This document shows positions 1 through 31,545 of a DNA stretch of 54,196 nucleotides, in pieces. Each line of letters begins with the position of its first letter. Position 1 is the first letter of the stretch. Source of the DNA: Dialister histaminiformans. Lineage in GTDB: Bacteria; Bacillota; Negativicutes; Veillonellales; Dialisteraceae. The stretch is from positions 76,087 through 130,282 of the forward strand of contig NZ_FMXA01000005.1 of NCBI RefSeq assembly GCF_900103425.1. Direction: 5' to 3'. The position numbers and the translations under genes are program-made. Under the pieces are notes generated by a model. That model did not search any database and was not told the origin of the DNA. It worked only from the letters and a program-made list of their open reading frames with translations.

Positions 1-66
1 GAAAGAAAGGGGGACCGACGAAGTCGGTGGATAGTTGATTCCACTTTGTTTGAATAAAGGAAAGTA
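1..66 (+). repeat. Multi-hairpin repeat, copy A (cut by window start)
   Basis: This is the right part of the repeat family seen complete near 29.3-31.2 kb. The G-rich strand GGGGGACC is followed by a small stem (CCGAC, loop GAA, GTCGG), then the constant part GGTGGATAGTTGATTCCAC and the end hairpin CTTT/AAAG. The left end lies outside the window. It belongs to the subfamily with loop TAGTTGAT. Confidence 0.7.
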
Positions 67-81
67 GAAGGATATCACATA

Positions 82-295
82 TTTCCCTCTCTGGAAGACC
101 ATATCCTAATATAGTGCACAATGTCCAATCTCCAGCTTTACAGCAGACCCGCCTGCCATATATTAAGATATCAAGGATTTGCAGGCATTCGAGACAATCC
201 GTTGTCTCGAATCCATCCGCTTGTCGAATGGTGGAAAGTAGAATCCACTATGTGAATCAGAAGGGTAGAACGCTGTATGTTAGAGCAAAGGAAAG
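82..295 (+). repeat. Multi-hairpin repeat, degenerate copy with expanded core
   Basis: The left half (82-100, TTTCCCTCTCTGGA...) and the right half (227-295, AATGGTGGAAAGTAGAATCC...) belong to the same repeat family, but about 125 bases separate them instead of a short stem-loop. The insert holds a perfect 8-bp hairpin, CGAGACAA/TTGTCTCG, at 190-209. The copy at 31044-31253 also has an expanded core, so the middle arm seems to be the tolerant site. No gene is supported here. Confidence 0.55.
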
Positions 296-29038: not shown

Positions 29039-29144
29039 TAAGATGATTTTTGAGGGTGGACAAAAAGTGTTGTAAAAAAATCTCAAAACCCTTGCCAATA
29101 CTGGTGAAATAGGCTTTTATTTTTGTCGCCAAAATTTTAGCAGG

Positions 29145-29217
29145 CTTTCCCTTATTCAAACAACTTGGAATCAACTATCCACCGACGTTTGTCGGTCCCC
29201 CTTTCTCTCCAGAAAGG
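29145..29217 (-). repeat. Multi-hairpin repeat, copy D
   Basis: On the minus strand this reads CCTTTCT-GGAG-AGAAAGG, then GGGACC with core stem CCGAC/GTCGG, then GGTGGATAGTTGATTCC and AAGGGAAAG. It is the only clearly inverted copy. The first stem is CCTTTCT/AGAAAGG, whereas copy E has CCCTCTCT/AGAGAGGG around the same GGAG loop. Confidence 0.75.
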
Positions 29218-29313
29218 AGCAGTTTGATGTGCTTGCCTGTACTTGTTCATAAGCTTGCTCCTAAACAGGAAGATAAATTATAAGGCAGTATTCCTGTTTT
29301 CGCATTATACGTT

Positions 29314-29438
29314 AAGAATGAGAAAGCTAATTGATAGGAAGAATACAGATTGTTTCCCTCTCTGGAGAGAGAGGGGGACCATCCGCCAAGACGGATGGTG
29401 GAAAGTAGAATCCTCTATGTTAGAGCGTAGGAACGTAG
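29314..29438 (+). repeat. Multi-hairpin repeat, full copy E
   Basis: The upstream module AAGAATGAGAAAGCT... begins at 29314. The first hairpin is CCCTCTCT-GGAG-AGAGAGGG, the core stem ACCATCCG/CGGATGGT, then GTGGAAAGTAGAATCC and the end hairpin CTATG-TTAGAG-CGTAG with one G-T pair. A reading frame overlapping it is almost certainly not a gene. Confidence 0.75.
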
Positions 29439-29519
29439 ACCGGTGTGATTGGTATATAAAAAGCTATGTGCAATATCTATCACACAAAAACTTCCATTAG
29501 ATAGAAGTTTTTGCCGCTC

Positions 29520-29600
29520 TGCCTTTTGATGTTAAGGTGCCCTCTAGAATCCCGTAGGGATTTGCTGTCTTGAGCCGAAGGATCGCGATCTTTGATTGAA
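29520..29600. repeat. Hairpin modules including a TTGATGTT-loop stem
   Basis: CCTTTTGATGTTAAGG (29522-29537) is the same hairpin as at 383-398. It is followed by AATCCCGTAGGGATT and by CGAGCCGAAGG-like linker sequence. A separate hairpin AAACTTC/GAAGTTT sits just upstream (29488-29510) and may terminate transcription. Confidence 0.5.
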
Positions 29601-29653
29601 GATTAGTATTGAATTATGGAACAACACTTTTTGTCCTATAACCCGCAAAACGT

Positions 29654-29830
29654 TTCCCGTTCTGGAGAGAAAGGATAAAGGCCGCAAACGTTGTTTGCTG
29701 TCGGCAAAAATGGCCTAGCCATTTTCGAGCCGGTATAAACGCAGAGCGTTCATAAGTCTGCAAGCCTACGGCTCGAGTCGGCAAAATCTTCTATCCGAAG
29801 ATTTCGAGGGGAAAAGTGGAATGTTTCTTT
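29654..29830. repeat. Left half of multi-hairpin repeat running into a GTCGG-linker hairpin chain
   Basis: TTTCCCGTTCTGGAGAGAAAGG (29654-29675) is the left end of the repeat family, but a chain follows in place of the core. Its stems are CAAAC/GTTTG, AAAATGGC/GCCATTTT, AACGC/GCGTT, AGCC/GGCT and AAATCTT/AAGATTT. The linkers are CTGTCGG, CGAGCCGG and GAGTCGG. The two repeat classes are therefore physically joined here. Confidence 0.65.
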
Positions 29831-29839
29831 ATAAAAGAT

Positions 29840-29957
29840 AAGAATGCGAAAGCTGTCAAAAGGAAAGTTTGCGAAACGAAGCTCCTTTCTGGAGAGAAAG
29901 GGGGACCAGCCTGTGGCTGGTGGATAGTTGATTCCACTATGTTGGAGCATAGGGAAG
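29840..29957 (+). repeat. Multi-hairpin repeat, full copy G
   Basis: The upstream module AAGAATGCGAAAGCT begins at 29840. Hairpin 1 is CCTTTCT-GGAG-AGAAAGG, the core is ACCAGCC/GGCTGGT with loop TGT, hairpin 3 is GTGGA/TCCAC with loop TAGTTGAT, and hairpin 4 is CTATG/CATAG with loop TTGGAG. This is the most regular copy and the best reference for the family. Confidence 0.8.
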
Positions 29958-29988
29958 TATGGTTGATGAGCTAAGGGTCAAAGACCGT

Positions 29989-30111
29989 AAGAATGCAAAA
30001 GCTCCACAAAGAGAAAGCATGCAGCACGTTTCCCGTTCTGGAGAGAAAGGGGGACCAGCCTGCGGCTGGTGGAAAGTAGAATCCACTATGTTGGGATAAG
30101 GGAAAGCAGAA
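29989..30111 (+). repeat. Multi-hairpin repeat, full copy H
   Basis: AAGAATGCAAAAGCT begins at 29989. Hairpin 1 is TTCT/AGAA inside CCC/GGG with one mismatch, the core is ACCAGCC/GGCTGGT with loop TGC, and hairpin 3 has loop AAGTAGAA. It ends GATAAGGGAAAGC. It lies 31 bases after copy G in the same orientation. Confidence 0.8.
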
Positions 30112-30203
30112 AAGTGTTACATATATCCTTTATAAAGATTTTCCATGTCCTGACTCAAATCTCAATTCTCGTATCTCTAACCTGTCTTTTTTGAATGTGC
30201 TTA

Positions 30204-30809
30204 TTATAAATGTGCCGTTGAATTGAGTGTTCTGACGATATTCCTTCCGTCTTTCAGTGCTTCTATTCTGGTGATGTTGGCATTGCCCTGGGAAAAGAGC
30301 CAGGCTCTGTCGAGGGGAATCTGGAGGAGGCCGCAAATCATTGTTCGGATGGCAGCTCCGTGGCTGACTATGAGGAAGGTTTTGTTGTCGTTGGCACTAA
30401 TCAGTTCATTGAGAAAACCCATGGTTCTGCTTTCTGCATCGGCAAAGGTTTCGCTGCCTGGAATGTCTACGGTATCAGGATGTATGTACAATTCCTTGAT
30501 TCGTCCCGGCCATTTTCTTTCAATTTCTTCAAAAGTCATTCCTTCCCACTGACCAAAATTGATTTCCGCAATTCGAGGTTCAACCTGCACAGTGAGATGA
30601 TGAGGACGTGCAATGGTCTGTGCAGTCACCTGTGCACGATTCAGAGGACTGGAATAGATAGCATCAAAATGGATATCCTTCAATGCCAGAGCGGCTTTTT
30701 CTGCCTGTTCAATGCCCAGCAAATTCAGAGGCACGTCCGTAGATCCCTGAAAACGGCCTATATCGTTCCATGCTGTCTGGCCATGTCTTACAAAATATAA
30801 AATGTTCAT
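30204..30809 (-). CDS. Histidine phosphatase family protein (phosphoglycerate mutase-like)
   Basis: This 201-residue protein has the catalytic motif LYFVRHGQTAWND at residues 4-16, the YSSPLNRAQVTAQTI block, EINFGQWEGMTFEEI, and the second catalytic His in FLIVSHGAAIRT. Relatives include alpha-ribazole phosphatase (CobC), GpmB-type mutases and broad phosphatases; I cannot choose between them. It is the only gene in a 2.7-kb repeat-rich stretch and is transcribed against its neighbours. Confidence 0.88.
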   Translation of the reverse strand: MNILYFVRHGQTAWNDIGRFQGSTDVPLNLLGIEQAEKAALALKDIHFDAIYSSPLNRAQVTAQTIARPHHLTVQVEPRIAEINFGQWEGMTFEEIERKWPGRIKELYIHPDTVDIPGSETFADAESRTMGFLNELISANDNKTFLIVSHGAAIRTMICGLLQIPLDRAWLFSQGNANITRIEALKDGRNIVRTLNSTAHL

Positions 30810-31043
30810 TTATGAGCTTTGCCTCCACCATTTAAATATAGTCCTGGGAAAAGTATAGCATAGATGAGCTTCTCACATCATCGATTCCTCTATGTAGAAT
30901 AAATGTACAGAAATATATAAAAATGTACAAATAAAGCAGTGCAGAAAAGACAACAAGTACAAGCATGGATGGGGCGGGAGATGAGGAGAATTAACAGACA
31001 ATGAAACGAAAAACTTAAGGTGTCAGTTTTCAGATGAAAAGAT
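30810..31043. other. Intergenic, no feature seen
   Basis: This AT-rich stretch upstream of the phosphatase gene presumably holds its promoter, but I found no convincing box pair. Short reading frames here have no recognisable content. Confidence 0.3.
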
Positions 31044-31253
31044 AAGAATACAAAAGTCCTGCCAAAGGAAAGCATACACACGTTTCCCTCTCTGGAGAGA
31101 GAGGGGGAATGACGACAAGGGCTTGTCGTCATTGGCTGTAAGTCCATAGAATTATGAAATCTTTGATTTCCATACTATTGACAGCCCGGTCTTTGCTGGC
31201 GAATGGTGGAAAGTAGAATCCTCTATGTTGGGATAAGGGAAAGCATGCAAATG
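31044..31253 (+). repeat. Multi-hairpin repeat, copy I with expanded core
   Basis: AAGAATACAAAAGTCC begins at 31044 and CCCTCTCT-GGAG-AGAGAGGG follows. In place of the short core there are about 95 bases starting with a perfect 10-bp hairpin ATGACGACAAG/CTTGTCGTCAT and then TGGCTGT...ACAGCC. The right half resumes at AATGGTGGAAAGTAGAATCC and ends GATAAGGGAAAGC. The ends are constant while the middle is replaced. Confidence 0.7.
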
Positions 31254-31337: not shown

Positions 31338-31374
31338 GGTGGATAGTTGATTCCACTTTGTTTGAATATGGGAA
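31338..31374 (+). repeat. Multi-hairpin repeat, right-half fragment J
   Basis: GGGTGGATAGTTGATTCC, then ACTTTGTTTGAATATGGGAAG, matches the right half of copy A. The left half is not recognisable in the preceding bases. Confidence 0.6.
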
Positions 31375-31439: not shown

Positions 31440-31545
31440 ATCTTTTAATGGTAAGATGCCGACTTATGAGCCTTGTGGCTCATACCGACCTGCAAATTTT
31501 TTTAAGAATTTGCACCGACCTTGAGCGTCAGCTCATCTTCTCCTG
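31440..31545. repeat. Chain of hairpins, CCGACC-linker type
   Basis: The stems are ATCTT/AAGAT (31440-31457), TATGAGCC/GGCTCATA (31465-31472 with 31477-31484), TGCAAATT/AATTTGCA (31491-31498 with 31507-31514) and TGAGC/GCTCA (31522-31535). CCGACC separates the second from the third and the third from the fourth. The linker is the reverse complement of the GGTCGG type. Confidence 0.7.

Follow-up and report, generated by a model that had tools for sequence, protein, structure and literature searches.

Intergenic DNA in many bacteria is filled by REP-like palindromes, and several families of these lack a known enzyme. Among them are the REP and REPIN sequences associated with the RAYT (TnpA-REP) transposases (PMC8266576, PMC3116915, PMC3733652), which occur as many intergenic palindromes per genome, as inverted copies on either side of a nuclease gene (REPtrons) and as gene-less inverted pairs, and for which structure-based recognition has been proposed. 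CGTC-tagged REPs, including the neisserial dRS3, are abundant palindromes with no dedicated transposase according to a 2013 survey, and are laid out as a CGTC tag, an 8-9 bp stem starting with AT and a CCA tail (PMC3733652). Neisserial NIME combine short palindromes with modules of other kinds into intergenic arrays of mosaic order (PMC3898611), and members of the IS200/IS605 group are likewise small mobile units with folded ends.

Here, we analyze a family of two-hairpin palindromes that, by analogy, appears closest to REP/RAYT and has an unrelated nuclease. Its copies in the window described below are probably gene-less (non-autonomous) versions of the folded ends of a mobile unit encoding a DUF559 protein. 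The family shares with REPtrons the three arrangements named above, the gene-less inverted pairs being found here in genome G095, and differs from them in having a DUF559 Vsr-like PD-(D/E)XK nuclease instead of an HUH tyrosine transposase, and two linked hairpins with no conserved GTAG tag instead of a single hairpin that has one. An unpaired GTAG before the palindrome is not conserved; GTAG follows the core in one subfamily only, and GTTG in the other. Because nuclease type and tag differ, we do not count the family among the REPtrons. The CGTC-stem-CCA layout is absent from 41 aligned copies, and the mosaic arrays resemble those of NIME, whose dRS3 has the form ATTCCC-N8-GGGAAT in contrast to the two-hairpin plan linked to DUF559. 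Pneumococcal BOX elements have modular hairpins, with modules that differ from those of the present element, and we know of no nuclease gene reported for them. They are similar in being small interspersed intergenic repeats (PMC3049150).

The IS200/IS605 group also differs in its nuclease, and the host genome has only a truncated Y1 fragment. No HUH Y1 transposase gene (PF01797) lies next to the elements, the sole trace genome-wide being a 55-residue fragment beside cas genes, and an IS200/RAYT protein was rejected as the partner enzyme on this ground. This IS200-like fragment (L065, G000:C30:42776) directly follows ORFs that by eye are cas1/cas2-like.

Repeat copies in the window

The window (G000:C24:76087-130282) is a stretch of 54,196 nucleotides from Dialister histaminiformans containing the copies in Table 1. 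Coordinates from a covariance model place copies A, D, E, G, H and I where an earlier reading of the letters alone (the sequence-only reading) had put them. The model, built from 41 distinct simple copies, gave 135 matches in the 1.7-Mb host genome, about 60 of them full copies and the remainder fragments or insert-bearing variants, and copy E alone gave 56 BLAST matches, indicating that the family is real and not due to chance. Sequence comparison detected no DUF559 remnant in the window.

Table 1. Repeat copies and parts of copies in the window, with strand and the basis of each assignment.
Feature	Position	Strand	Basis and remarks
Copy A (hairpin 1 3' arm, core GAC/GTC, right module)	1..67	+	cmsearch, 62.7 bits; 5' part cut by window start
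Insert-bearing copy, right part only	180..271	+	37.4 bits; G000:C24:76266-76357
Copy D, core GAC/GTC, head-to-head with copy E	29142..29237	-	81.4 bits
Copy E, full unit	29336..29438	+	106.3 bits
Copy E hairpin 1, TTTCCCTCTCT-GGAG-AGAGAGGGGGA	29353..29378	+	sequence; helix 1 of alignment
Copy E core hairpin, ACCATCCG..CGGATGGT	29378..29399	+	sequence; helix 2 of alignment
Hairpin-1-only fragment	29645..29674	+	repeat search
Copy G, core ACCAGCC/GGCTGGT	29862..29960	+	94.7 bits
Copy H, core ACCAGCC/GGCTGGT	30012..30109	+	100.5 bits
Copy I	31067..31246	+	67.4 bits
Right-module fragment	31338..31374	+	repeat search; 95% to copy A

A DUF559 gene between inverted elements

Several repeat copies have right flanks that code for parts of a DUF559 protein. 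A search of the genome found PF04480 matches on contigs C3, C20, C23 (both ends), C9, C34, C36 and C39, and sequence comparison added remnants on C34 (at 33k), C35 and C40. In the parts of the host genome examined, every one of these genes and remnants adjoins an element, including both on C23 and both on C34; two weak matches, one below threshold at C24:109872 and the other a DUF559-like domain of an ORF of 1561 aa on C30, were left out of this set. The DUF559 copy number is uncertain because several copies lie at contig ends.

The sole copy seen whole, on C3, consists of an element, 66 nt, an intact 140-aa DUF559 gene and an inverted element that touches the stop codon, with the GGTGGA sides of both elements toward the gene; as in a REPtron, a high-copy intergenic palindrome brackets its own nuclease gene. 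At the listed genes the 3' elements are inverted and overlap or directly follow the stop codon, whereas a gap of about 45-100 nt separates the 5' elements from the gene downstream of them. Among the findings that would overturn it, the sequence-only reading had named correspondence with the end of a known MITE or IS. This is partly the case, since the element forms the inverted terminus of a unit with a DUF559 gene.

The C3 protein matches DUF559 (PF04480) in Pfam with 101 bits against a cut-off of 20.6, and has as a PDB relative 3HRL, a solved endonuclease-like protein (E=3e-15). Residues D61, E72, D74 and H78, each conserved in 28 or more of 29 homologues, are likely to be catalytic. The DUF559 domain is common, and the papers we found assign it no role in mobility; a search of non-subscription literature by title and abstract returned none that links it to repeats. 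A Caulobacter DUF559 protein is treated as a Vsr-like repair enzyme (PMC12907096).

DUF559 flanks in other genomes

DUF559 is present in 34 of 120 relative genomes, where hairpin repeats in inverted orientation often flank the gene at a distance of 20-140 nt. Terminal inverted repeats like those of the C3 unit, scored at more than 25 bits and with the 3' repeat allowed to overlap the gene end, surround 13 of 29 DUF559 genes outside the host as against 3 of 76 control neighbouring ORFs (p=1.6e-6); at 30 bits the counts were 9 DUF559 genes and 1 control ORF. About half of the DUF559 genes outside the host have no detectable inverted flank. Enrichment for hairpins alone was modest, and weaker than in the inverted-repeat test, because ordinary terminators also yield hairpins, and searching for the complete plan with a regular expression, whose pattern was probably too strict, found no match.

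Individual flanks follow the plan of the window repeat. That of G113 reads TTTTCCCTCTTCTTGAAGAGGGGGGACCGTTTTT..AAGACGGTGGGTG and is matched by the model built from host copies only (22.8 bits, E=0.0025). The flank of the G095 gene, CCCCTCTCGAGAGGGGTGGC-core-GGGGTGTGTT, occurs at least 56 times in its genome, often in inverted pairs of ~100 nt that combine one arm from each of two core classes; its core covaries (CGC/GCG versus CAC/GTG), and the adjoining bases are AATT or AAGT, with no matched duplications. The G095 motif is found in 5 of 9 genomes with a stand-alone DUF559 gene versus 11 of 111 others (p=0.002), and it adjoins the gene in G083, G103, G111 and G119. In G083, G103 and G111 the flanking copies are in direct orientation, not inverted. 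Pairs of ~100 nt with AATT or AAGT in front were seen in G095 at L184, L186, L188, L189, L193-L195, L197, L199 and L200, several of them adjoining a terminator-like GACCAGCATTTTGTC sequence.

Loci from other phyla, taken from plasmid-collection records, revealed folded G-rich flanks of DUF559 genes in Deinococcus (a 56-nt inverted repeat, 98%), Pseudanabaena (81 nt, 88%) and Azospirillum. A DUF559 gene on a Sphingomonas plasmid has a flank reading CCTCCCCGAAACGGGGAGGGGGACCGGCGAAGCCGGTGGA, and the host-only model matches both of its sides, inverted, at 26.0 and 16.9 bits. Sphingomonas DUF559 genes interrupt the suf operon between sufB and sufC (L213, also on a plasmid) and the pnt operon (L214, the gene whose flank is given above); their location inside conserved operons suggests recent insertion of a single gene, as for a mobile gene. 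These distant flanks have plan and gene in common with the window family and may or may not be alike by descent. In Neisseria gonorrhoeae NZ_CP119142.1 (L201) a DUF559 gene lies between direct repeats of ~55 nt (CTGCACAAGCTGTTTTCCTTGCAGC..CCCCAACAGCCGACCCGTC); this record is catalogued as a plasmid and is probably a chromosome because it measures 2.17 Mb.

A probable mobile unit or, less likely, a passenger

The association of the DUF559 gene with the element is well supported, as are the inverted flanking, the multiplicity of copies, the conservation of the residues that are likely catalytic and the plan common to distant genomes. From these we infer mobilization by DUF559. The proposed unit would have as its sole gene the DUF559 (PF04480) Vsr-like endonuclease, which would recognize the two-hairpin fold (hairpin 1 and core), single-stranded or as a cruciform, and cut next to it. 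Copies would then multiply by repair of the break or by template switching, in the manner proposed for TnpA-REP acting on REPs, and once abundant could recombine among themselves into mosaic arrays. The core arms would covary because the stem must pair while its letters are free, and hairpins 3 and 4 would lie outside the recognized signal.

Several observations count against this mobile unit: the predominance of tandem over inverted neighbours (37 same-strand versus 9 opposite in the host genome), the DUF559 genes without a detectable inverted flank, the direct flanks, and the missing empty site. Neither an empty site nor a target duplication was found, and no close relative showed the site empty. 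DUF559 could instead be a homing-type passenger that cuts at, or recombines into, older REP-like palindromes spread by other means, using pre-existing repeats as its sites. Homing enzymes are known among the Vsr-like nucleases, the host genome has few DUF559 copies for more than 60 elements, and the direct-repeat flanks of some genomes fit such a passenger. We nevertheless consider it unlikely: the only two motif copies in G103 both flank the DUF559 gene, within 200 nt, the genus-mate G001 has neither gene nor element, and the search for another intact candidate enzyme yielded just the truncated Y1 fragment.

A broader and more tentative proposal, which we hold to be possible yet somewhat doubtful, is that DUF559 together with two-hairpin palindromes constitutes a class of minimal mobile elements of its own, one that spans phyla and evolved in parallel to RAYT/REP. 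Such a class could also provide the enzyme that further orphan palindrome families lack, and in its furthest form the folded end could be an RNA partner of the nuclease. Were DUF559 to serve one broad class of palindromes, the question of their enzyme could be tested with a protein of 140 residues and a hairpin of 60 nt. The many core variants within one genome offer a ready set of candidate substrates.

Covariation is concentrated in the core hairpin

The sequence-only reading had proposed four hairpins with covarying stems and, from this, selection on structure in RNA or in a cruciform. In the 41-copy alignment the core hairpin strongly bears out the covariation: its 9 pairs are formed in 96% of cells and six have changed on both sides. 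Core pair 50-64 occurs as UA, CG, AU and GC in 20, 10, 7 and 4 copies, that is, as all four Watson-Crick pairs with zero mismatches in 41 of 41. Under a null model that keeps the tree by re-dealing substitutions among columns branch by branch, this pair (E<0.01) and core pair 52-62 (E=0.03) were the only proposed pairs to reach significance. Core stems of 6-10 bp also differ in their letters (GAC, ATC, AGCC, ATCCG, ATTCG, ATCTG, GCCAGCC), with an outer pair of A-T, C-G or G-C and arms that nearly always match. The fold of the core has been kept through many sequence states. Hairpin 1, of 10 pairs, is well paired (92% of cells) and covaries weakly, two of its pairs being doubly changed. Support is lacking for hairpin 3 (GTGGA/TCCAC; no doubly changed pair) and hairpin 4 (CTATG/CATAG; one, with 74% paired), many copies having TGCTGT or TCCTCT in this region; none of the three has a significant pair under the tree-preserving null. 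Shifting the 3' partners by 1-3 columns lowered paired cells from 89% to 47-61%. The non-pairing column pairs 72-76 and 49-64 also pass the null, which reflects subfamilies.

Compensated stems can also arise by mutation: polymerase template switching within a near-palindrome rewrites one arm to match its partner and is documented to yield such stems without selection (PMC8794818). Palindromes are generally prone to it, and one stem (ACCGCCAGCC) carries a pair of reverse-complement loops (AAC/GTT). An inverted loop was found in just 1 of 18 stem classes, and among half-compensated pairs G-U outnumbers A-C (43:6 in hairpin 1 and 10:3 in the core on the + strand, counted over distinct haplotypes). 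Template switching may contribute; the decay of hairpins 3 and 4 within the same units speaks against it as the sole cause, and a purely mutational origin of the covariation appears improbable. The G-U excess leans toward one folded strand in what is a weak test, since the copies had been aligned by fitting them to the model.

Placement and modularity

Nearly all elements are intergenic, in divergent, convergent and tandem gene settings alike, in both orientations and with housekeeping genes adjacent. A gene-regulatory placement was rejected because position relative to the neighbouring genes is not consistent. The strong folding and the + strand G-U excess would suit a structured RNA that is transcribed and serves the host, for example in cis-regulation or mRNA stability. 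The mixed settings and orientations argue against it, as does the confinement of the element to the host species within its family: 11 other family genomes, the genus-mate included, gave no covariance-model match, and DNA-level relatives of the repeat were absent among 60 genomes. The absence of the element from Rfam also argues against it: at gathering thresholds the window yields only a tRNA, and the DUF559 loci only raiA, SAM and tRNA. The sequence-only reading did not recognize a named element either. We regard such an RNA as very unlikely. A match of a viral contig to the right module was rejected as a chance match within a phage gene.

Modules reassort between copies, one core being found with differing hairpin 1 and right modules, and inserts are shared. 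Two long hairpin-rich core inserts recur. One, of ~90 nt, takes the place of the core 5' arm and loop in copy I (ATGACGACAA..TTGTCGTCAT, GGCTGT..ACAGCC) and in about a dozen further copies; the other sits before the core, as at about 100-215, ahead of the core CCATCCG..CGAATGG of the copy at 180..271. Passive spread of a mosaic repeat by homologous recombination or gene conversion with no dedicated enzyme, as proposed for the NIME arrays, would account for the reassortment and the common inserts, and is highly improbable because it leaves the DUF559 association unexplained both in the host and in other phyla.

The ~90-nt insert (31105-31200 in the window, and further copies) keeps differing 3' arms (GGAT, GGCT, GAAT, AGAT), which implies repeated independent exchange. 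A second repeat family, at 350-570, 29523-29820 and 31440-31540 of the window, strings together short hairpins whose arms vary, joined by a constant linker ACCGACC / GGTCGGT, and often begins after CTTTTGATGTTAAGG. The spacing of its linkers is enriched in the host genome only, with 25 matches versus 2 in the control.
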